50,034 nucleotides of DNA from Acidobacteriaceae bacterium (GTDB taxonomy: Bacteria > Acidobacteriota > Terriglobia > Terriglobales > Acidobacteriaceae): contig DAHVZT010000088.1 of the NCBI GenBank assembly GCA_027323885.1, positions 1 to 50,034 of the forward strand, read 5' to 3'. Of this stretch, positions 17,710 through 27,845 are shown piece after piece (the first letter of the stretch is position 1; each line of letters starts with the position of its first letter). A model generated the notes under the pieces. It saw only the letters and a program-made list of their open reading frames with translations. It did no database searches and was not told the DNA's origin. The position numbers were made by a program, and so were the translations under genes.

Positions 17710-18213
17710 ATGAGGCAGGGAATGGGTGTCCAAACCACCGTCGCGGATGCGGGAGATCCCGATCGATTAAGCATTCATCAAGGCGTGCGCACAGCATTGG
17801 CCGCGGGTCTCTCCTTCTGGATTGCGCAATTGCTTCACCTGCCCGGCGATTATTGGGCGGCGATCAGTGCAATTGTGGTGATGCAATCGGAGATGGGAGC
17901 TACTAGGACCGCCGCTCGCGATCGCCTGGCGGGAACGGCAATCGGAGCTGTTGCCGGATGGTTGACCGCGATCGTATGGCACCATTATGTCGTGATTTTC
18001 GCAATGAGCGTTCTCCTCGTGATGGTGCTTTGCACCGTTCTGCACTTCAAAAATGCGGGGCGTCTAGGCGGCGTTACGGTCGCGGTCATCGTTCTGATTC
18101 CGCATGCTGGACCGGTTTCTCACATCGCCCTCGAACGTTTTGTGGAAGTTTCCTTCGGGATTTGCGTTTCACTCGCGATTGCTACTCTGTGGCCGAAAGC
18201 TCAAAGGCCCTAG
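17710..18213 (+). CDS. Small FUSC-family membrane protein
   Basis: A 167-aa protein with about five membrane segments (from about residue 30 to 162). The segments HLPGDYWAAISAIVVMQSE and RDRLAGTAIGAVAGWL are typical of the N-terminal half of FUSC/aromatic-acid exporter proteins. Such proteins usually have 350-700 residues with a second repeat and a cytoplasmic domain; this one holds only the single membrane unit. It may form oligomers. The frame is clean, with no sign of a broken second half. It lies 21 bp after the permease gene, so the two may be co-transcribed. Confidence 0.82.
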   Translation: MRQGMGVQTTVADAGDPDRLSIHQGVRTALAAGLSFWIAQLLHLPGDYWAAISAIVVMQSEMGATRTAARDRLAGTAIGAVAGWLTAIVWHHYVVIFAMSVLLVMVLCTVLHFKNAGRLGGVTVAVIVLIPHAGPVSHIALERFVEVSFGICVSLAIATLWPKAQRP

Positions 18214-18322
18214 CAGGCCGTCTTGCCCTGCAATCTTCGTGGGATTGGCTGCGGTATTATCTGGAGATCGTTACGCGGGTGAAGGTTTACAAATTTTAGC
18301 TAAGCGGAGAATTGCGATTGTG

Positions 18323-19786
18323 ATGAGCTCAAAAAGGATGCGTACGTTGCTTTCTTCTGCGTTATGCGTGGCCCTGATTGGCAGCGCAGCGGCGCAGATG
18401 GATAATCGCAGTTTCGGAAAACCGATTACGCCCGCTCCAGCCGATCCACAGATTCAGGCAGCAATTCAAAAGATTTCGGCGCAGCGCATTCAGCAGGACA
18501 TCACCACGCTGGTAGGTTTTCACAATCGCAGCACGCTCTCCAGCAACGACAAGGATCTGCCGAAGGGCCAGGGCGTTTTGGCAGCGGCGGACTGGATAGA
18601 GCAGCAGTTTCGGGCCTATTCCGCAGCATGCGGGGGATGTCTGGCGGTCAAACGCGACACATTCACCCAGCAACCCGGCTCGCGGGTCAAGCAGCCAACC
18701 GTCATCAACAACATCTACGCGGTTTTGCGCGGCAGCGATCCAGCGCAGGCCTCGCGGATGTATCTCGTGACCGGCCATTACGACTCACGCGACAGCAGCA
18801 ATGAAGATACTCGCGGAACTGCGCCCGGAGCCAATGACGATGCCAGCGGTGTCGCGGTCAGCCTGGAAAGTGCGCGCGTCCTAAGCAAACTGCATTTTCC
18901 CGCCACTCTCGTGTTTGCAGCAGTCGCAGGCGAGGAACAGGGCCTGTATGGAAGTCGTCATCTGGCGGACTACGCAAAGCAGCAGGGATGGAACCTGGAA
19001 GGTGTGCTGAACAACGACATTGTAGGGGGAAATACGACGCCAGGAGATACTCTGCAAAACAAGAATGTCGTCCGCGTTTTTTCAGAAGGCATTCCGTCCA
19101 CGGCCTCCGAACAACAGATCCGCATGATTCGCATGCTCGGTGGAGAAAGCGATTCTCCATCGCGTGAACTGGCGCGCGAAATCGCCGGTGTAGACCGTAC
19201 GTATTTTCCGGCTCCCGCTGGCGAACCGAATACACAAGTCTTTCATCCTGTGATGGAGTTCCGGCTGGATCGCTATTTACGTGGCGGCGATCACTATTCC
19301 TTCAATCTTGCGGGGTTTCCGGCAGTTCGCTTCACCGAGTGGCGAGAGGATTTCAACCATCAGCACCAGAACGTGCGAGTCGAGAACGGCATCCAGTACG
19401 GAGATTTGCCGCAATATGTCGATTTCAAATACGTCGCCCATGTCGCACAACTGAACGCCGCAACCCTTGCTACCCTGGCATCCGCGCCGGGCACTCCGGT
19501 CAATGCTCGTATCATCACTCAAAAGCTGGATAACAATACGGAACTTGCCTGGGATGCTCCGGCGGGAGCGCCTGCCGGGACAAGATACCAGATCGTGTGG
19601 CGTGACACGGCCGCGCCGGACTGGCAGTTCTCTCACACTGTCGAGAACGGGACGCATGCCACTCTTCCGGTTTCAAAAGATAACGTCATCTTCGGTGTGC
19701 GCTCTGTCGATGCAGCCGGACACAGAAGTCCCGCTGCATTTCCTTTCCCGGCTCGCTTTCTCACACCTCCACTGCCCAAAAAATAA
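18323..19786 (+). CDS. Secreted M28-family zinc peptidase with C-terminal Fn3-like domain
   Basis: A 487-aa exported aminopeptidase. Signal peptide: about residues 1-24 (LLSSALCVALIGSAAAQ). The M28 domain has zinc ligands in VTGHYDSRDS (His, Asp), PGANDDASGVAV (bridging Asp), AGEEQGLYGS (catalytic Glu pair) and GGDHYSFN (last His). A fibronectin-like beta domain covers about 385-480 (NTELAWDAP, YQIVWRDTA, FGVRSVDAAGHRSP). The open frame extends back to 18104 into the FUSC gene, but the ATG at 18323 (or GTG at 18320) follows AGCGGAG and starts the signal peptide. It likely degrades extracellular peptides. Confidence 0.93.
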   Translation: MSSKRMRTLLSSALCVALIGSAAAQMDNRSFGKPITPAPADPQIQAAIQKISAQRIQQDITTLVGFHNRSTLSSNDKDLPKGQGVLAAADWIEQQFRAYSAACGGCLAVKRDTFTQQPGSRVKQPTVINNIYAVLRGSDPAQASRMYLVTGHYDSRDSSNEDTRGTAPGANDDASGVAVSLESARVLSKLHFPATLVFAAVAGEEQGLYGSRHLADYAKQQGWNLEGVLNNDIVGGNTTPGDTLQNKNVVRVFSEGIPSTASEQQIRMIRMLGGESDSPSRELAREIAGVDRTYFPAPAGEPNTQVFHPVMEFRLDRYLRGGDHYSFNLAGFPAVRFTEWREDFNHQHQNVRVENGIQYGDLPQYVDFKYVAHVAQLNAATLATLASAPGTPVNARIITQKLDNNTELAWDAPAGAPAGTRYQIVWRDTAAPDWQFSHTVENGTHATLPVSKDNVIFGVRSVDAAGHRSPAAFPFPARFLTPPLPKK

Positions 19787-19848: not shown

Positions 19849-20649
19849 TCAGTAGCGTTTGTACGCCTGGTTGAATTTGGGTCTGGGCATGGAGTGAATA
19901 TAGGCGCTGACATCGTACGCCTCCTGTGGCGTCAGCGTTCCCGGACTGTTTTGCGGCATATTGTGAATCACGAAAGCAGCCATCTTGTTCACCTTGTCCA
20001 TGCCTGCGCCATCGTTGTAGGAATTTGGGCCCCACACCGGCGGCAATACAGGAGGGGTTCCCGCGCCGTCCTTACCATGGCAGTCGGCGCATTGGTCCAG
20101 GTAGATTCTTTTGCCGTTCGAGACATTCCCCGTCAGTTCCGGCAGTTTTACAAGACCACGGCCCGGGTATGGCTTTCCTTTCGCTCCATCTCGTGACAGC
20201 CAGTTGACATACGCGGTCAAAGCTCTGATTTCCGGGCTGCCGGGTGGCGGCGGTGTACCGTTTTCGCTCCGGGTAAAGCACTCGATGAAGCGTTCCTGCA
20301 GCGAAATAACACGGCCGGCGCGCCGGTTGTACCGGGGGAAAATATTGGCCAGGTCGATCATCGGGGCAGAATACGAGGCCAGCCCGCTATTGAGGTGACA
20401 ATCGCTGCACGAGAGTTGATTGCCGACATAGGCGTGGGCGTATTTCGGAGTGTCGTCGAAGATTTGTCTGCCGAGCCGAATCTCATCGCCAGCCTGACCT
20501 GGCGGGATGGCTGACTTTTTGTACTTAGCCAGCGGAGAAGCGGGACGGGCAACGGGAGTGGGTTGCGGGCCTGCGCAGGCCGCGAGCATGGCTGCAATCA
20601 CCAGCATCATGGAATTCAAAGCTGACCGATTCCAGATTGGGTCCTTCAT
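19849..20649 (-). CDS. TsdA-like dihaem cytochrome c lipoprotein
   Basis: A 266-aa protein and last gene of the oxidase operon. Its lipoprotein signal ends at LAAC (Cys25). Two haem-c sites are present: CSDCH (81-85) and CADCH (187-191). The segment after haem 1 (APMIDLANIFPRYNRRAG, VISLQERFIECFTRS, PEIRALTAYVNWLS) resembles thiosulfate dehydrogenase TsdA. Cys124, 39 residues after the haem-1 His, is placed where TsdA has the Cys ligand of its active-site haem. It could oxidise thiosulfate or a related compound and pass electrons to the fused oxidase; this is inference. The ATG overlaps the previous stop as ATGA, and a longer frame back to 20748 is rejected. Confidence 0.85.
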   Translation of the reverse strand: MKDPIWNRSALNSMMLVIAAMLAACAGPQPTPVARPASPLAKYKKSAIPPGQAGDEIRLGRQIFDDTPKYAHAYVGNQLSCSDCHLNSGLASYSAPMIDLANIFPRYNRRAGRVISLQERFIECFTRSENGTPPPPGSPEIRALTAYVNWLSRDGAKGKPYPGRGLVKLPELTGNVSNGKRIYLDQCADCHGKDGAGTPPVLPPVWGPNSYNDGAGMDKVNKMAAFVIHNMPQNSPGTLTPQEAYDVSAYIHSMPRPKFNQAYKRY

Positions 20650-21641
20650 GGCTTTTGCGCTCCGGCGCTCTCGCCAGCAGGGACAGACTTGAAGCCGAAC
20701 TGGCGGTACACAGCTTGCGCTTCCGCAGTTTTCAAATAGGCCAGCCACGCCGCCGCCGCTTCAGGATGCGGCGCGTCCGCCATCATTCCCGCTGCATAAA
20801 TTGCCGTTACATTCTGCGCATCGGGAATTTGGACGCCTTCGATGGGATTCCCTATTTTCTTCTGAAACTGAACCTCGGAAGCCCACGTGACACCTGCGTC
20901 CGCCTTCCCCTGCATAATGCGCATCGGCGTTTGGCGGTGATGGATCTCCGTCAACTCGGTCATTCCGTTCGCCGCTTTTGCCTGATACACCTGATGAAAA
21001 AGCTGCTCTCCGCCTGCTTTGCGCAGAGCGGCGGCGATCTGGTTGGCGACGCCTTCCCACTGCGGGTTTGGCATGGAAAGCTTGATGTTAGGCCGGCCCA
21101 GATCGATCAAGGAACGGATTTGCCTTGGGTTTCCGGCGGCGATCATGATCTCCAGCGTGTTGGTCGCATAGGTGACCACGTTCTTGACCTGACCTTGTCG
21201 CTTCATCGTATTCAGCACGCGGGCACCGGCTTCATACACATCCGGCTTTGCCTGCACGGTCAGGTTGCCCAGCGTCAGCGTATCGTCCGCGCCGATCTGC
21301 TTGCGCAGAATGCCGGGCGGCAGCGTCTCGTAATAGATGTGTCCCTCCAGTTCCGGGTGCTGCTTTACGAATCCGGCAATCAGTTGAGGCAGCACAAAGA
21401 ACTGGTTGCCGCCAATAAAGAGGACCAACTTCGCATCGGCAGGGTTGCCGTGCAGATCCGGTACGTTGTCCACGTCCGGCACATCGAAAGCATAGCCTTT
21501 GCTGGCCGCCGGATCGTTCGCCCCGCCACTCCATGGCGGAGTGATATGTGGCTTGTTCTGCGCATTCGCTTTTTGCATAAAAGGCGATCCCAATGTCGCG
21601 AAGATCAAAATTGAAATGCCAACGTTACGATGCATTTTCAT
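20646..21641 (-). CDS. ModA-like periplasmic substrate-binding protein without transporter
   Basis: A 331-aa exported protein with a signal peptide (ends near KANAQ). Its two-lobed binding-protein fold is recognisable from LVLFIGGNQFFVLPQLIAGF, YATNTLEIMIAAGNP, KADAGVTWASEV and HPEAAAAWLAYLKTAEAQAVYRQFGF, the last two typical of molybdate/sulfate-type binding proteins. No ABC permease or ATPase is nearby. It lies inside a respiratory operon, overlapping the cytochrome gene by 4 bp, so it may sense or deliver a ligand (an oxyanion or metal, for example) rather than feed an importer. The start may be either Met1 or Met3. Confidence 0.85.
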   Translation of the reverse strand: MKMHRNVGISILIFATLGSPFMQKANAQNKPHITPPWSGGANDPAASKGYAFDVPDVDNVPDLHGNPADAKLVLFIGGNQFFVLPQLIAGFVKQHPELEGHIYYETLPPGILRKQIGADDTLTLGNLTVQAKPDVYEAGARVLNTMKRQGQVKNVVTYATNTLEIMIAAGNPRQIRSLIDLGRPNIKLSMPNPQWEGVANQIAAALRKAGGEQLFHQVYQAKAANGMTELTEIHHRQTPMRIMQGKADAGVTWASEVQFQKKIGNPIEGVQIPDAQNVTAIYAAGMMADAPHPEAAAAWLAYLKTAEAQAVYRQFGFKSVPAGESAGAQKP

Positions 21642-21661
21642 GGACTGCTTCCCTCAAAAGA

Positions 21662-22381
21662 TCAGCCAACGGTGATGTACGTGTAATGGCCCTCCGCCTG
21701 CAGCAGCGCGATGGCAGCGACCATGGAAGCCACAACCAGAACGCCAGGAAGCGTGTGAGCCATCATTTCCTTTACGATCTGCTCCGGGTCCTGCGACAGA
21801 TGGTCATGCGCAATCAGGGCGCGAGCCTGCTCCTCTGTCGCAGTGTGGCAGCTTAGGAATTGAGCTCCGCGACGTTGCAGCGCCTGGATGCTTGTGTCCT
21901 GATAGATGGACTTGCGGCTGTCCGGGTTGGTGGAGGCGTATTTAAGCTCGGGTCCCGCTTTGCTGGCGTAAAAAGGATTCTTCGTTGCGGGCTGACCTGT
22001 GGCGGGGTCGTTCACCTTCAACCAGTCGCCGATCTTGTACTTGTTCCAAATAAAGTCGTCGTAGTTGAGCATGTTCGTGGGGCCATGCAGCGCGGCGACA
22101 ATCTTGATCTGGTCAGCCGGAACCCCGAACCCGAACCGGAGACCGTTCAGAGAATTTTTGATGTTGTTGAGAAATTTGCCATCGCCAATCGGAATCACAT
22201 CGTAAACCTGCTTGATGCGAGCGGGATCGTTGACGATTCTATTGAAGTCGGAAACCTTCCAGTCCGACGTTGTGTATACCAGTTGAGCCTCGGCTGCCGG
22301 TTGCGCGGCTGCCAAAGCTCCTATTGCTGCCATTCCTGCCGCGGTGCTGCTCATAAAGGATCTACGACTGATGCTCTTCAT
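21662..22381 (-). CDS. Tat-exported DsrE-fold protein
   Basis: A 239-aa protein with a twin-arginine signal (SRRSFMSSTAAGMAAIGALAAA). The rest reads as a DsrE/DsrF-like fold: QIKIVAALHGPTNM, then RRGAQFLSCHTATEEQARAL with Cys178 where DsrE-type proteins keep their sulfur-carrying Cys, and the ending LPGVLVVASMVAAIALLQAEGHYTYI. Cytoplasmic DsrE/TusD proteins carry persulfide sulfur; this exported version would work in the periplasm. The start at 22381 has AAAGGGA upstream, and a longer frame to 22459 lacks such support. It overlaps the preceding small membrane gene by 20 bp and stops 20 bp before the binding-protein gene. Function is inferred. Confidence 0.78.
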   Translation of the reverse strand: MKSISRRSFMSSTAAGMAAIGALAAAQPAAEAQLVYTTSDWKVSDFNRIVNDPARIKQVYDVIPIGDGKFLNNIKNSLNGLRFGFGVPADQIKIVAALHGPTNMLNYDDFIWNKYKIGDWLKVNDPATGQPATKNPFYASKAGPELKYASTNPDSRKSIYQDTSIQALQRRGAQFLSCHTATEEQARALIAHDHLSQDPEQIVKEMMAHTLPGVLVVASMVAAIALLQAEGHYTYITVG

Positions 22382-22580
22382 CGGTCCCTTTCTCTGGTTC
22401 AGGTTCATGTTCATGTTTGGAGGGGTCGGAATCGGAAAGGGAAGCGGTTCCCAATCCAAGGTTCGCCAGGACTTGAAATTTCGGTTGCTCGCTGCGCCGG
22501 TAGAACTCCCGTGAGACGCGGCGACACACGATCAAGACAAGCAGAATGAGAGTGGCGGCGCCCAGAATGATCGCTGTCAT
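22362..22580 (-). CDS. Small membrane protein of the oxidase operon (CcoQ-like position)
   Basis: A 72-aa protein: one N-terminal membrane helix (about 2-19, AIILGAATLILLVLIV), then a basic stretch (CRRVSREFYRR) and an acidic His/Glu-rich tail. Its ATG overlaps the oxidase stop as ATGA. In cbb3 operons the small subunit CcoQ is placed next to the catalytic subunits and has the same topology; sequence identity to CcoQ cannot be judged at this length. It probably stabilises the oxidase. Confidence 0.7.
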   Translation of the reverse strand: MTAIILGAATLILLVLIVCRRVSREFYRRSEQPKFQVLANLGLGTASLSDSDPSKHEHEPEPEKGTDEEHQS

Positions 22581-25180
22581 TGCGATGCCTCCGCCGCTGT
22601 GGAAGCTGCTCCCCCGGTAAGCGGCTCCCGGGTTTTCGGGCCAGCGTAGAAGGAGCGCACATAGTAGGTGACTGCCTGAACTTCCCGCGTGGTCAGCAAC
22701 GGCCAGGCCAGCATTCCGCTGCCCGGAACGCCATGGCGAAGAATATAAGCCGCAGCAGGATAGCTCGGCATCATCTCGTGGAAATTCGCCGGTCTGGGCA
22801 GCATCTTCAGGCCGTCTGGTCCATCGCCAGCTCCATCTGCTCCATGGCAGCGCTGGCAGTGGGTCACAAAAACACGACGGCCAGCATCCAGCAGTGTGGC
22901 AGCGGGTGCCTGCCGTTCACTGGCGGTCAGTTCCTTGGCCTGTCCGATCGACGCCACATAATCGGCTACGGCCTGGAAATCGGTGCTGGGCAGCTCGTTC
23001 CAGGATGGCATGGAGGACCCCGGCACACCGGTCTGCAAGACCCGCCAGATGAGATCGTCTGATAAACGAAAGCCCACCAGATTGAACGCGACTGGCCGCA
23101 ACGCTTGCCCGCCGACAGATTTGCCGTCCGCGTCGACTCCATGACAGCCGGCGCAATTCGCCAGAAAAACCTGACGGCCTTCGGCAAGGTCGCTGGTCTG
23201 TACCGCAACGGGGCGCACAACCATCGCGGGTGCGGGCGCGGGAGTGAGCTTGGCTTGCGCCCTGCCCAGCGTGTTCAGGTAGGCAACGAGATCTCGCGCG
23301 TTCCGCGTCGGCCGGTCTGGTCCTCCGTCAAACAGCCACGGGTACGATGGCATGACGGAGTCCGGCACAAGATAACGAGGATCATAAAGGTGCACCAACT
23401 GCCAATCGTCAGGGTGCTTTCCGAACTCGCGCGCCAGGTCCGGTCCAATGCGCCGGGTACCCCACATCTGCGGAAATTCCTGTTGCGTCTCCCACGCTTG
23501 CGTGGGCAATCCAAAACGCCACCGGTCGCTCGCTGTAAAGCGCACCTGCATGGAGTGGCAGTACGCGCATCCATCGATGGCGTACAGTTTGCCGCCGTGC
23601 TGTTCCGCGGCGGTGAGCACAAGCTGAGCACCGCCGGGAGTACTGCGCTGGATCCGTTTTTTCAAGCTCATTGCCGGATAGACTCCAAGCGCAAGGAAGG
23701 AAATGAAGAAGAACAGGACGCCCGCGCCGAACGTCGAGGCATAAGCGGTCGTGAACCAATAGCTGGCGCGTCCTTCACAGGGAACGGCCTGCGTTTCCGT
23801 TCCCAGCCTGACGCCCAGAAACTTGTCCGGGTTGCGAGGGCCGGTAATGAAGCTCAGCCCGAACACCAGGAAACCCGCCAGCAGAATGATTCCGTCGATG
23901 CTTCGAAATACCCAGTAAGGCCGCGCGGCCTGCACAGAATCAATCCACGGCAAATGTCGTTGCCAGAGTGTTGCTTCGACCAGACCCGCGATGGTAAGGT
24001 CCACCACCATCAGGCCAAGTCCGGTGATCAGCAGCCAATATGACCAGGCCATCGCACGGCGATTGTGGCGCACCCCTGGAATTCGCTGCCAGATGTGCCC
24101 TAGTCCGCCCATCGCTGCGAAAGAGGCGAAGCCGATCATCGCCAGGTGGGAGTGGCCGATCACCCAGTCGCTGAAATGGATGAAGCGGTTGAACGACATG
24201 ACGGCCTGCACGGAACCCTGAATGCTGACGATCAGGTACAGCACAATGCTGGTCCAGACAAACCGCAGCGGCACGTCGCGCAGCACAGATCCTTCGCTTG
24301 CCAGACCGATCGACAGCAGAAGATTCGTCACCACCACGATGACATCAATTCCCTGGTAAATCGATGCGGCCTCCGAGACATGCTGCGCTCCCATAGGCAG
24401 GGAAGAAAAAATGTAGTGATGAATTCCGTTGAGAGGATAGACGAGAAACAGCAGCCAGAACCCAACCATGGAATAAAAATGGCTGTAGATCGGCCTCCGG
24501 GTGGCTGCGGTAATGACAAAATATTCCACCGCGACCGCCAGCGGAGTGACAAAGATTCCGACCGCGTCATGGATCCAGAGGCCGCTGAACGCAGCTCCCA
24601 TCGCTCCCGGCAGCGCATGGGGCACAATATTTCCCAACGGATACCCCAGGAACGTGAACGTCAGCCCTCCCAGCAGATACCAGCCCGATACAAACAGCTC
24701 CGAAGCGCCGCACCTCAAGAGCGGCAGACAGAATTGGACGATCATCAGCGCGAAGCATGTCTCGATGACCGCGGCGATGACCAGTGGAAACTCCGCCCAT
24801 TCCAGCGGCTGGAGCACGCCGGAAAGAACCAGCGTCCAGCCTCCCAGGACGGCGACAAAGTTATAGACAAAGAACATTGCCCAGCCAAGACGTTCGCTGG
24901 TGACAGTGCGCCGGGACAGAAAGGGAACTGCATAGTAGAGGAACGCGAGAAAGGCATTTCCCAGCCATGCGTAGAGAATCCCCTGCGTGTGGTCATAGCG
25001 CAGGCGGCCCCAGGTCAACGCGCTGTGGCCGGTAAGAAATTCCGGTACGTGGAATTTGATGGAAACGGCAAGCCCAAACAGGGCGGAGAGCATCAGGCCC
25101 ACAAAGGCGGCATAGGTGTGGGCACGCACCAGCTTGCTCGCTACAGGAACAAGTCCCCGCTCTGGCTGTGCCGTTATCAT
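22577..25180 (-). CDS. Single-chain cbb3-type cytochrome c oxidase (CcoN-CcoO-cytochrome c fusion)
   Basis: An 867-aa haem-copper oxidase that would reduce O2 at the inner membrane. Residues 1-500 are CcoN with about 12-13 membrane helices: His64 (low-spin haem), His204 (CuB, LWIHDAVG), Tyr232 (RPIYS, cross-linked Tyr position), His254-His255 (CuB) and His343/His345 (IGHSHLAMIG, haems). Residues 500-640 are CcoO-like: DGCAYCHSMQVRF (haem c, 538-542), RIGPDLAREFGKHPDDW, VMPSYPWLF (axial Met610). Two more haem-c domains follow: CAGCH (676-680, Met724) and CQRCH (775-779, Met823), replacing CcoP. Normally these are three proteins. There is no frameshift. NO-reductase is unlikely because the CcoN/CcoO signatures are clear. 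It is flanked by two small membrane genes with 4-bp overlaps. Confidence 0.92.
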   Translation of the reverse strand: MITAQPERGLVPVASKLVRAHTYAAFVGLMLSALFGLAVSIKFHVPEFLTGHSALTWGRLRYDHTQGILYAWLGNAFLAFLYYAVPFLSRRTVTSERLGWAMFFVYNFVAVLGGWTLVLSGVLQPLEWAEFPLVIAAVIETCFALMIVQFCLPLLRCGASELFVSGWYLLGGLTFTFLGYPLGNIVPHALPGAMGAAFSGLWIHDAVGIFVTPLAVAVEYFVITAATRRPIYSHFYSMVGFWLLFLVYPLNGIHHYIFSSLPMGAQHVSEAASIYQGIDVIVVVTNLLLSIGLASEGSVLRDVPLRFVWTSIVLYLIVSIQGSVQAVMSFNRFIHFSDWVIGHSHLAMIGFASFAAMGGLGHIWQRIPGVRHNRRAMAWSYWLLITGLGLMVVDLTIAGLVEATLWQRHLPWIDSVQAARPYWVFRSIDGIILLAGFLVFGLSFITGPRNPDKFLGVRLGTETQAVPCEGRASYWFTTAYASTFGAGVLFFFISFLALGVYPAMSLKKRIQRSTPGGAQLVLTAAEQHGGKLYAIDGCAYCHSMQVRFTASDRWRFGLPTQAWETQQEFPQMWGTRRIGPDLAREFGKHPDDWQLVHLYDPRYLVPDSVMPSYPWLFDGGPDRPTRNARDLVAYLNTLGRAQAKLTPAPAPAMVVRPVAVQTSDLAEGRQVFLANCAGCHGVDADGKSVGGQALRPVAFNLVGFRLSDDLIWRVLQTGVPGSSMPSWNELPSTDFQAVADYVASIGQAKELTASERQAPAATLLDAGRRVFVTHCQRCHGADGAGDGPDGLKMLPRPANFHEMMPSYPAAAYILRHGVPGSGMLAWPLLTTREVQAVTYYVRSFYAGPKTREPLTGGAASTAAEASQ

Positions 25181-25347
25181 GGACGCGCGCCTGGAAATTC
25201 CCGGTGAACTGTTCCCGCAGACTGCCGCGCAGGTTTTCTGTGCGGGCTTTCCAGGTAGAGCGATCCTAAGGCGAGTAGTGTGCCGAGCAGTAGAAGCAGT
25301 ACAACGAATGCCCGCTCCTTATGCACATGACGGCCTTGCTGTTTCAC
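25177..25347 (-). CDS. Small membrane protein, first gene of the oxidase operon
   Basis: A 56-aa protein starting at GTG. GGGAGGGA lies 6 nt upstream, a near-perfect ribosome-binding site. A basic N-terminus (KQQGRHVHKER) is followed by one strong membrane helix (AFVVLLLLLGTLLALGSLYL) and a short polar tail. The TGA stop overlaps the oxidase ATG (ATGA), so translation is coupled. It is probably an accessory or assembly subunit of the fused oxidase. An earlier GTG at 25371 is possible but would place the ribosome-binding site inside the gene. Confidence 0.7.
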   Translation of the reverse strand: MKQQGRHVHKERAFVVLLLLLGTLLALGSLYLESPHRKPARQSAGTVHREFPGARP

Positions 25348-25601
25348 GAGCGCTCCCTCCCCTGGGACCACACTCTTCCATCTTCCATCCCTGCCGCTTG
25401 CCTGTCCAAGCAGAAAGAGTTATCAGGCATAAGCAAGCCGTTTGATGATGTCCCCTTCATCCGGACGCAATGGCCGGCTCCAACTTGAGCCGCCTTGCGC
25501 TTCGGCGAAAGATGCGAGAGAGCAAGGGTGTCTGTAAAATCGACAACGATGCAATTGCTTTCTCTTATACTGTTCAGTCTTCCACGTACGGAGTACAAAC
25601 C

Positions 25602-26771
25602 ATGAGCGATTCCAGAGTGAGTTCCGTCGCCGCGATGCACCGCAAACAATTTGGCGCGGGGGCGCAGCTCTATCAGGCTCCGGGACGCGTCAATCTGATT
25701 GGTGAGCACACAGACACCAGTGAAGGATACGTGATGCCCGCCGCGCTCGATCTGCGAACTCTTTCAGTTCTGAGCCCTCGCGCCGACCTCACGGCAAACA
25801 TCTACTCGGCCAACTTCCATCAGCAGGTCTCCGTCGATTTGAGCCAGATGCCATCGGCCGCGCGCGGGCATTGGAGCGATTATCCCGTCAGCGTTTTATG
25901 GAGCCTGCAGCGGCGTGGGATCCATTGCCGCGGTTTCGACATGACCCTTGCCGGAAACGTGCCGATTGGCTCCGGCCTGAGCTCCTCCGCTTCAATTGAG
26001 GTCGCGGTGGCTGTCGCGGTCCTGGACTACGCCCAGACAACTCTGGCCAAACCGGAGATCGCGAAGATTTGCCAAATTGCCGAGAATCAATTCGTCGGGG
26101 CGCAAAGCGGAATTATGGACCCCTTTGCTTCCTGCTGCGGAGTCAAAGATCATGCCATCCTGCTCGACTGCCGTTCGCTTCAATATGAGCCACTGCCTCT
26201 TCCGGAACAGGTCGCGGTGGTGATCTGCAACTCCATGGTGAAGCATTCTCATTCCGATGGCCGGGAGTATAACCAGCGCCGTTCGGAGTTTGAGGAAGGA
26301 ATGCGTACCCTGCGAAGCAGATATCCAAAGATGCAGACGCTGCGCGATATCGGGGAGCAGGAACTGAGCGACTGCGCCGAGTTGATGCCGGACCACATCT
26401 TCCGGCGCTGCTGGCACGTGGTGTCCGAAAACCGGCGCGTGCTGCAAGCTGCGGCCGCGTTGCGCGAAGGGGATTTCGTTCGGTTTGGCGAACTGATGGT
26501 GCAGGCCCACTACAGTATGCGAGACAACTACGAAGCAAGCTGCGTGGAGGTCGACATTCTTGTGGAACTGGCGATGCTGCAGACCGGATGTTTTGGGGCG
26601 CGCATCACTGGAGGTGGGTTCGGCGGCTGCACTGTCAATCTGGTCGCGAGCAAAAACGCAGACGCTTTCGTGGAGAACGTTCGGAGGGACTATCGCGAGA
26701 AGACCGGGATTGAAGCCGAAATCTATCTGTCCTATCCCTCGGATGGCGCCGGGCCGGTGCCGGAGGCGTAG
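25602..26771 (+). CDS. galK: Galactokinase
   Basis: A 389-aa GHMP kinase that phosphorylates galactose at C1 (Leloir pathway). It has the galactokinase signature PGRVNLIGEHTDTSEGYVMP near the N-terminus, the GHMP ATP loop PIGSGLSSSASIEVA, IMDPFASCCG (catalytic region) and the C-terminal ITGGGFGGCTVNL. The ATG at 25602 has GGAG 8 nt upstream; the frame is open back to 25470 but without a better start. A -10-like TATACT lies at 25566-25571. It is divergent from the oxidase operon across a roughly 250-bp region, and no other gal gene is nearby. Confidence 0.96.
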   Translation: MSDSRVSSVAAMHRKQFGAGAQLYQAPGRVNLIGEHTDTSEGYVMPAALDLRTLSVLSPRADLTANIYSANFHQQVSVDLSQMPSAARGHWSDYPVSVLWSLQRRGIHCRGFDMTLAGNVPIGSGLSSSASIEVAVAVAVLDYAQTTLAKPEIAKICQIAENQFVGAQSGIMDPFASCCGVKDHAILLDCRSLQYEPLPLPEQVAVVICNSMVKHSHSDGREYNQRRSEFEEGMRTLRSRYPKMQTLRDIGEQELSDCAELMPDHIFRRCWHVVSENRRVLQAAAALREGDFVRFGELMVQAHYSMRDNYEASCVEVDILVELAMLQTGCFGARITGGGFGGCTVNLVASKNADAFVENVRRDYREKTGIEAEIYLSYPSDGAGPVPEA

Positions 26772-26825: not shown

Positions 26826-27845
26826 CTAGCTGTCATGTGTCAGGTGCGGAGACGGCTGCGGCGCGCCCCGTGATACCAGGCAACAATCCGTAGTCAGCAG
26901 AACCAGCGAGATCCAGAACAGGTCCGCGCCCAGAAGATGCACAATCTGGATCCAGGTGGGTGCGAGAAGAAGCACATCGAAAACGCCCAGCACGATTTGC
27001 AGGCTCAATGTGCTCAGGACGGCGAGGCCCAGCGTTCGCGTTCGCGCTGCTGCGCCAGGCTTGAAAGACTGCACCAGCAGCCAGGAAATGAATGCTGCGG
27101 CAATCACGGCGCAGGCCGGATGCACCCACCGCAGACGCAGCAGCAGGCTGCTCGTGGAGGAAAAATCACTGTGGAATGCCCCCGCCAGCGAGGTTGAGGG
27201 AAACAGCGTGTCTCCCAGGGCCGCAAGTGAACCCGTGACGCCCACGAACAGCGTTGCGAAAATGCCCAGAACCGGGAAACCAAGTCTCCCATGGCGAACG
27301 CCGGTGTTCGCGCGGCCGCGGGGCCGGCTCAGAAATTCGGCGGCAAGCGTGAGCGCGGCCAGCAGCAGCAGTGTGTTTGCAAAGTGGAAGGCCAGATATA
27401 CACCGCGCGCGGCTGACTGGTTATGCTCCACTAAGCGCAACAAGACCAGCAACGCGCCCAGCAGAGCCTCATTCACAGTAAGCACCGCGGCAGCGACGGC
27501 TGCCCACCGTGCAAAGTCGCCGCGCGCCGTCGCCCGCCAGGCCCAGACCATCAGCACAGCGACCAGCAAAAGAGAACCACCGCTCATCAGCCTGTGCGTG
27601 AACTCCACAATGGTATGGAACTGGGGCGAAACCGGCACCACGACTCCGTTGCATAGCGGCCAGTGATCGCCGCAGCCCCCGCCCGAGCCCGTGGCCCGCA
27701 CAACGGCGCCCCACAATACGACCAGCACGTTATAACCGAGCACGAACCAGGCGAAGCGGCGGAGCGCCGCGGAAATCGGCGCTCTTACGCGGCCAGAGGA
27801 GTGGGGCAGGGAAGCGTCGAAAGACAGGCTACTGCTCGTCATCAA
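26826..27845 (-). CDS. ctaA: Heme A synthase (COX15/CtaA)
   Basis: A 339-aa inner-membrane enzyme oxidising the methyl group of haem O to haem A for aa3-type oxidases. About eight membrane helices are visible. Haem-binding His motifs are EFTHRLMSG and, later, FHFANTLLLL within HNQSAARGVYLAFHF. The N-terminal VVRATGSGGGCGDHWPLCNG is a family signature and contains the Cys pair seen in many bacterial CtaA proteins. The matching ctaB and aa3 oxidase genes are not in the window. The nearby fused cbb3 enzyme should not need haem A, so the proximity may be incidental. Confidence 0.93.
   Translation of the reverse strand: MMTSSSLSFDASLPHSSGRVRAPISAALRRFAWFVLGYNVLVVLWGAVVRATGSGGGCGDHWPLCNGVVVPVSPQFHTIVEFTHRLMSGGSLLLVAVLMVWAWRATARGDFARWAAVAAAVLTVNEALLGALLVLLRLVEHNQSAARGVYLAFHFANTLLLLAALTLAAEFLSRPRGRANTGVRHGRLGFPVLGIFATLFVGVTGSLAALGDTLFPSTSLAGAFHSDFSSTSSLLLRLRWVHPACAVIAAAFISWLLVQSFKPGAAARTRTLGLAVLSTLSLQIVLGVFDVLLLAPTWIQIVHLLGADLFWISLVLLTTDCCLVSRGAPQPSPHLTHDS

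Follow-up and report, generated by a model that had tools for sequence, protein, structure and literature searches.

A six-gene operon in a 50,034-nucleotide stretch of DNA (the window) from an Acidobacteriaceae bacterium probably encodes a dedicated thiosulfate:oxygen respiratory module. Two enzymes, TSD and TsdA, have been treated as different thiosulfate dehydrogenases (PMC6335251). Relatives of both share one operon here, together with a cbb3-type oxidase and a solute-binding protein. The gene set is a conserved module, and the operon and its relatives define a sulfur-linked branch of cbb3 oxidases. The genes and the main parts of the oxidase are as follows.

25177..25347, minus strand: g1, small protein with a single transmembrane (TM) segment, the first gene, with a 4-bp overlap with g2 (open reading frame, ORF, and TM segment)
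22577..25180, minus strand: g2, predicted single-chain cbb3-type oxidase of 867 aa (PF00115, PF02433, PF13442)
about 25180-23831, minus strand: CcoN part of g2
about 23686-23315, minus strand: CcoO/FixO haem c part of g2
about 23191-22955 and 22891-22631, minus strand: two further cytochrome c domains of g2
22362..22580, minus strand: g3, small single-TM protein of 72 aa with a conserved PKFxFL-type motif (ORF and TM segment)
21662..22381, minus strand: g4, predicted exported DsrE-fold protein of twin-arginine translocation (Tat) type, with an invariant Cys178, a TSD relative (NF052225 and structural model)
20646..21641, minus strand: g5, predicted periplasmic solute-binding protein (SBP) of the molybdate/sulfate type (SBP_bac_11, 150 bits)
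19849..20649, minus strand: g6, TsdA-type dihaem cytochrome c with a predicted Cys-ligated catalytic haem and a lipobox-like N-terminus (PDB 4wqc, 4.8e-43)

The initial annotation had described six tightly packed genes, and the junctions are exactly as it described them. The six ORFs (25347-19849) are joined by three 4-bp ATGA overlaps at 25177-25180 (g1/g2), 22577-22580 (g2/g3) and 20646-20649 (g5/g6), one 20-bp overlap at 22362-22381 (g3/g4) and one 20-bp gap at 21642-21661 (g4/g5). Its domain assignments also agree with ours for COX1, FixO and two cytochrome c stretches, for SBP_bac_11 and for a SoxA-TsdA cytochrome; that of DsrE agrees via a predicted structure.

Conservation of the gene set was assessed from the binding protein by a profile scan of named genomes, in which we took the best 80 of 437 confirmed relatives, so that the counts lean to close relatives; 50 of these 80 loci (L numbers) carry acidobacterial titles. 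Genes in the relatives were found by homology against all frames, and their start codons are approximate. The order oxidase, small TM protein, DsrE, SBP, TsdA recurs in other genomes, and Acidipila rosea DSM 103428 (L076) holds all six genes in order. A DsrE gene lies upstream of the binding-protein gene in 47 of the 50 acidobacterial loci, the exceptions (L086, L112 and L122) starting within about 130 bases of that gene, and a TsdA gene lies downstream in 44, with five of the six exceptions ending within about 260 bases. Oxidase-like sequence was found upstream in 18 of the 50: 15 full or nearly full chains (756-957 aa), one cut by a contig end (L082), and two loci with only the last cytochrome domains ahead of DsrE (L092:2553-3026 and L119:8549-9127). 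The flanking genes are hardly conserved; shadow frames apart, a LysR gene recurs near seven loci, and close relatives share one synteny block. The initial annotation had staked its proposal on recurrence of the gene order in other Acidobacteriota, and on this point the proposal stands.

The association is also apparent from the oxidase. In a run of an oxidase profile over 396 acidobacterial genomes (G numbers), 11 scored at least 690 bits, and the next scored 399. In ten of these 11 branch genomes (the window's genome, G134, G151, G107, G191, G388, G289, G309, G391 and G333), both DsrE and TsdA lie no more than about 2 kb from the oxidase. The eleventh, G329, carries SorA/SorB-like sulfite dehydrogenase genes directly upstream of its fused oxidase (L198:4375-8806); the SorA-like protein scores 445 bits against an NCBIfam cut-off of 600 and matches PDB 2blf at 9.2e-100, and the SorB-like protein scores 71 bits against a cut-off of 93. 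These genes are a possible second sulfur donor for the branch oxidase, and they suggest that it can pair with other sulfur donors. No DsrE was detected at lower-scoring cbb3 loci, either by profile (0 of 6, L203-L208, two of which are on contigs or stretches shorter than 15 kb, such as the 6.4-kb L204) or by single-sequence search (0 of 4, L051-L054); two of L203-L208 hold dihaem cytochromes that match the TsdA profile weakly, at 46 and 54. In a tree of 47 CcoN sequences, 22 module oxidases separate from 25 other acidobacterial cbb3 oxidases with a branch support of 100/100, although the tree is midpoint rooted and the program warned of long branches.

The oxidase itself is, by sequence, a divergent member of the cbb3 type and not a ccoN equivalog by NCBIfam. 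Its Pfam scores are 169.7 bits for PF00115, 106.5 for PF02433 and 81.2 for PF13442, whereas it stays well below the cut-offs of the ccoN equivalog model TIGR00780 (131.9 versus 583 bits) and of the fused subunit I/II model NF011053 (250 versus 1080 bits). Its His ligands and Tyr248 align with those of solved CcoN chains, and the helix-VII Tyr and five His are kept in all 22 module oxidases, the sixth His being kept in the 20 that have no gap at that position (two are gapped). We take these positions to have their usual metal-ligand and active-site roles, and with these roles the six His ligands, the helix-VII Tyr and the CcoO haem c place g2 in the C family. Such Tyr and His residues separate O2 reductases from nitric oxide (NO) reductases. 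We read g2 as an O2 reductase because it has preserved the His residues that bind the metals and the Tyr of the active site; an NO reductase was ruled out, as the helix-VII Tyr and the CuB ligands are retained. Compared with CcoNOP and NF011053, with which it shares the CcoN metal ligands and Tyr, the CcoO haem c and CcoP-like cytochrome domains, g2 holds everything in one 867-aa chain, scores far under the curated cut-offs and belongs to a separate clade among acidobacterial cbb3 oxidases.

The two small membrane proteins accompany the oxidase elsewhere. In 8 of the 11 loci checked, the start of the oxidase lies a few bases at most from the end of a small TM frame, and a TM-bearing frame of 55-73 aa follows the oxidase with a 4-bp overlap (ATGA, GTGA or TTGA) in 16 of 16 loci, including L194, which is probably on the same contig as L088. 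There was no Pfam or NCBIfam match to g1, and g3 is presumably CcoQ-like, given its position and shape.

By sequence, g6 belongs to TsdA. Its best PDB alignment is with Allochromatium vinosum TsdA (4wqc), and it matches SoxA only in part (42.9 of 110 bits). Both CxxCH motifs, the Cys ligand of haem 1 and the equivalents of Ser127 and Met209 are kept in 74 of 74 TsdA relatives scoring above 110 bits (47 from the acidobacterial binding-protein loci with the window and L055, and 27 others, six of which are also acidobacterial). A neighbouring Arg is kept in 47/47 of the acidobacterial set and 18/27 of the others, and the Lys208 position is mostly Asn (39/47 and 20/27, respectively), as in the TsdA of C. 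jejuni. The cysteine-ligated catalytic haem and the Met at haem 2 of this dihaem protein are shared with TsdA and TsdBA, for example of A. vinosum; TsdA is reported to work through a Cys S-thiosulfonate (PMC4423706).

The case for g4 draws on structure prediction as well. Pfam gave no DsrE match for it, and nothing beyond a sub-threshold Tat-like match. Its predicted structure (predicted local distance difference test, pLDDT, 88.3) resembles 2pd2 (Z 13.7, root-mean-square deviation 1.3 over 107 residues), 1l1s (Z 13.6) and chain C of DsrEFH (2hy5_C, Z 9.4), with DsrE/F-named entries overall at Z 8.7-9.4; a Foldseek search with g4 gave no DsrE match below 0.001 (best 0.003). The model places g4 in the DsrE/DsrF fold. 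Cys178, its only cysteine, is invariant in 85 of 85 relatives scoring above 95 bits, 80 of which have an RR motif near the N-terminus. By sequence, g4 is related to the TSD of Acidithiobacillus; we do not file it as TSD because it reaches 94 bits against the NCBIfam thiosulfate dehydrogenase model NF052225, whose cut-off is 300. All 10 DsrE homologues tested from outside Acidobacteriota pass this cut-off (355-418 bits; the short DsrE proteins of L071, L073 and L074 were left out), and nine of the 10 adjoin the same binding protein. The acidobacterial DsrE of G002 (L060) also passes, at 369 bits, and adjoins the same binding protein and TsdA. The initial annotation had considered that the TsdA-like and DsrE-like proteins might fall in families with an unrelated role; g6 is placed with TsdA by its PDB match and catalytic residues, and g4 is related to TSD.

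In 247 genomes, g4 matched 11 places, five of them with module partners (the window, G130, G002, G237 and G107). A second DsrE in the window's genome (contig C120, L056:9025-9741) is 44% identical to g4 and adjoins a MurJ gene, not an oxidase. Tandem pairs of DsrE genes stand ahead of the binding protein at L085:8191-9908 and L089:8359-9915. A search of viral contigs with the DsrE of L060 gave no match.

The initial annotation had left the ModA-like protein g5 unexplained. Foldseek relates it to 7tav (2.5e-14) and to SubI 6ddn (9.3e-14), and it has the ModA/SubI fold and belongs to SBP_bac_11. It scores 27.8 bits against the ModA model TIGR01256, whose cut-off is 62.5, and is not filed as ModA. 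Among 36 relatives with 43-75% identity, the motifs HHRQ and PNP..EG are invariant. There are no ABC transporter genes among the six operon genes, the part of the genome to which this check was confined. Molybdate uptake was not the preferred function, since the operon lacks a transporter and 26 of the 30 loci elsewhere pair the protein with TsdA or DoxD.

These 30 loci are the remainder of the 80, outside the acidobacterial ones (L120 is from an unidentified bacterium). A TsdA is present in 18 of them, in 11 as a five-haem protein, in three as a TsdB-TsdA pair and in four fused to the binding protein. A DoxD is present in eight (in L142 about 7 kb away), and the one DoxD-type protein scanned by Pfam has DoxD and DoxA domains; neither was found in four, of which L147 stops at the gene end. 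The fusions (L131:2326-4197, L139:9839-11686, L140:5806-7707 and L152:9791-11692, titled Planctomycetota or Phycisphaera) have an SBP domain ahead of a TsdA domain that keeps the Cys ligand, as seen in the sequence of all four and by Pfam in the one scanned. DsrE proteins above 95 bits occur in 19 of the 30 loci, and some of the remaining 11 have weak frames of 25-47 bits, several beside the binding protein. Because the binding protein is constant while the electron acceptor varies (TsdA, TsdBA, five-haem TsdA or DoxD), and because it is fused to TsdA in one group, g5 is best interpreted as a substrate-side subunit that handles thiosulfate; it looks like the constant thiosulfate-side partner. 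At L132:7838-9886 and ten similar loci, in proteobacteria such as Sideroxydans, the five-haem cytochrome beside the binding protein has a C-terminal TsdA domain; that of L132 also has a borderline MtrC/MtrF-like match.

Versions with a split oxidase are found on plasmids. Those of Acetobacter and Komagataeibacter carry the order DsrE-SBP-SBP2-cytochrome-TsdA-CcoN-CcoO-small protein, in one case on the 26-kb Komagataeibacter xylinus plasmid pGX3 (L209). Both pGX3 and the Acetobacter ascendens plasmid (L074) are small and mobilizable, with the module beside transposase genes. Gluconobacter has the order DsrE-SBP-DoxD, and related mixtures occur in Paraburkholderia, Methylobacterium, Bradyrhizobium, Bosea and Hymenobacter. 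A Methylobacterium plasmid (L069:5112-11862) has DsrE-SBP and a TsdB-TsdA pair beside COX2/COX1 of another oxidase type, which indicates that the oxidase partner can change. The CcoN part of g2 matches 388 plasmid records; among the 40 listed, seven have about 55% identity and 33 have 34.4% or less, and all seven are also among the binding-protein matches.

We propose that g5 would bind thiosulfate in the periplasm and, with no adjoining transporter, would hand it to the oxidising enzyme. The Cys-ligated haem of g6 would then oxidise thiosulfate via a Cys-S-thiosulfonate, and the exported g4 may hold or exchange the thiosulfonate on Cys178, giving tetrathionate, the probable product of the module. 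Electrons would pass from haem 2 of g6 to the three tethered c haems of g2 and on to O2, with g1 and g3 as small membrane subunits of the oxidase. A role for g4 as a sulfur carrier, in which it would carry the thiosulfonate, and the assembly of these proteins into one complex are inferences. The drop in potential from the thiosulfate/tetrathionate couple to O2 is large. For that couple, a midpoint potential (Em) of +198 mV has been given (PMC9562282). Electron donation from a reduced sulfur compound to O2, as proposed in the initial annotation, is supported, by comparison only.

Several findings weigh against this reading. Of the 35 acidobacterial loci whose upstream sequence reaches 4 kb or more, a full oxidase is present in 14, and 21 lack a complete one (19 with none, two with the last domains). 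One acidobacterial locus, L087, lacks TsdA despite 10 kb downstream. The binding protein is present in seven of the 396 genomes but in only two of the 11 oxidase-branch genomes, and a search at E 1 detected none at the loci of the nine other branch genomes, nor in L061; a divergent binding protein between DsrE and CcoN was sought in L047, L048, L201 and L202 and not found. Among the matches to g4, six of 11 stand alone (L056-L059, L062 and L063), with no binding protein, TsdA or oxidase in the fetched stretch, and a Methylocella DsrE (L072) has no annotated binding protein, TsdA or oxidase nearby. Besides the low score of g4 itself, far under the TSD cut-off, three of 43 aligned g4 relatives have no NF052225 match at E 0.001. 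In nine of the 11 loci with a five-haem TsdA, no DsrE scores above 95 bits, although six of those five-haem loci hold a weak same-strand DsrE-like frame (25-36 bits). PF13746, which we take to be the CcoG family, has no match in the genome of the window, an assembly of 152 contigs that is 73.6% complete. Finally, the Asn-Met at haem 2 of g6 resembles that of the C. jejuni enzyme, which acts in vivo as a tetrathionate reductase (PMC5146829), so that sequence does not fix the direction of the g6 reaction.

At L047:7427-8518 and L202:4905-5996, the position of the binding protein, between DsrE and CcoN, is taken by an exported-looking 363-aa protein made of two similar halves.

The likeliest of the alternatives, though itself unlikely, is that the substrate is not thiosulfate but some other sulfur oxyanion or a thiosulfonate (sulfite, polythionate or an organic thiosulfonate), with TsdA and DsrE as adapted relatives. 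The SorA-/SorB-like genes beside the branch oxidase of G329 (L198) and the divergence of g4 from TSD would fit such a substrate, but the TsdA catalytic residues are retained in 74 of 74 relatives, and the same binding protein pairs with DoxD in eight of the 30 other loci, with DoxD and DoxA domains in the one scanned. We regard as quite improbable that the genes serve thiosulfate or persulfide detoxification or tetrathionate reduction, with the oxidase merely co-transcribed: while this would agree with the Asn-Met that haem 2 shares with the tetrathionate reductase of C. jejuni, and with the DsrE relatives that stand alone in six of 11 places, the oxidases of the branch form a clade of their own and lie near DsrE and TsdA in 10 of their 11 genomes, the oxidase and g3 genes overlap by 4 bp, and a reductase would be oddly matched with an O2 oxidase. 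Least probable of all is an ordinary cbb3 oxidase on a general cytochrome c pool with the sulfur genes as passengers, since, despite the DsrE-SBP-TsdA sets that lack a complete oxidase at 21 of the 35 acidobacterial loci long enough to show one and the N-terminal oxidase remnant that alone is kept in L084/L195, the association holds in 10 of 11 branch genomes (with SorAB in the eleventh) against 0 of 10 lower-scoring loci with DsrE, and seven of seven plasmid records at about 55% CcoN identity, among the 40 listed, have the binding protein. That remnant, just ahead of DsrE at L084:8715-9071 and L195:7428-7784 (probably the same contig), suggests loss of the rest by deletion.

Around the operon, the array is bordered by a divergent galactokinase-like gene (25470-26771, plus strand) and a convergent M28 peptidase gene (18104-19786, plus strand), and scans for promoters and terminators gave no excess over shuffles. 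A COX15/CtaA haem A synthase-like gene lies close by (26826-27845, minus strand); a cbb3-type oxidase is not expected to need haem A. In the rest of this genome, at the completeness given above, neither RuBisCO nor DoxD was found, the DoxD search having had no positive control. SoxY had no match in the genome, but its control search was likewise silent; SoxX and SoxB had no match among the operon proteins in Pfam and NCBIfam, and neither was searched for in the rest of the genome. The likeness to SoxAX-SoxYZ is a functional analogy, a SoxA-type Cys-haem enzyme with a reactive-Cys protein, and DsrE is not SoxYZ.

Parts of this system are known. TsdB has been discussed as a protein that takes up electrons from TsdA and might donate them to cbb3 oxidases (PMC9237845); compared with TsdA/TsdBA, the window operon adds a single-chain oxidase of its own along with a DsrE/TSD relative and a binding protein for solutes, and has no TsdB gene. 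In Acidithiobacillus ferrooxidans, tsd (AFE_0042) is clustered with a sulfate/molybdate-binding protein gene and doxDA (PMC6335251), and thus a TSD-type gene, a binding protein and a thiosulfate-oxidising partner are common to both. The partner there is DoxDA, with TsdA homologues reported absent (PMC6335251), whereas here it is TsdA with a cbb3-type oxidase. The binding proteins of the two are likened by type, not by sequence. The initial annotation knew of no described system with this set. We likewise found no description of the combined operon, in a search mainly of titles and abstract starts that does not establish its absence in print, but the set is not wholly undescribed because tsd-sbp-doxDA had already been published in Acidithiobacillus (PMC6335251).

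A wider picture is possible, which we offer tentatively and would not expect to hold in full. A branch of the haem-copper oxidases may be dedicated to sulfur oxyanions and complexed with its dehydrogenase, a transporter-less binding protein may feed a joint DsrE-TsdA enzyme, TSD and TsdA may form the two halves of a single machine, and the missing electron acceptors of TSD may be TsdA-type cytochromes or DoxDA; the module could then move between phyla, also on plasmids, as portable lithotrophy. The Acidithiobacillus TSD is reported to reduce neither ubiquinone nor horse cytochrome c (PMC6335251), which leaves its acceptor open.

In summary, an operon with a TSD relative, TsdA and an oxidase names a candidate acceptor for TSD that can be assayed, and points to a role for a solute-binding protein that has no transporter. 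A named strain, Acidipila rosea DSM 103428, and the 26-kb Komagataeibacter xylinus plasmid make tests practical. These findings suggest thiosulfate respiration in heterotrophic-looking Acidobacteriota and in acetic acid bacteria.

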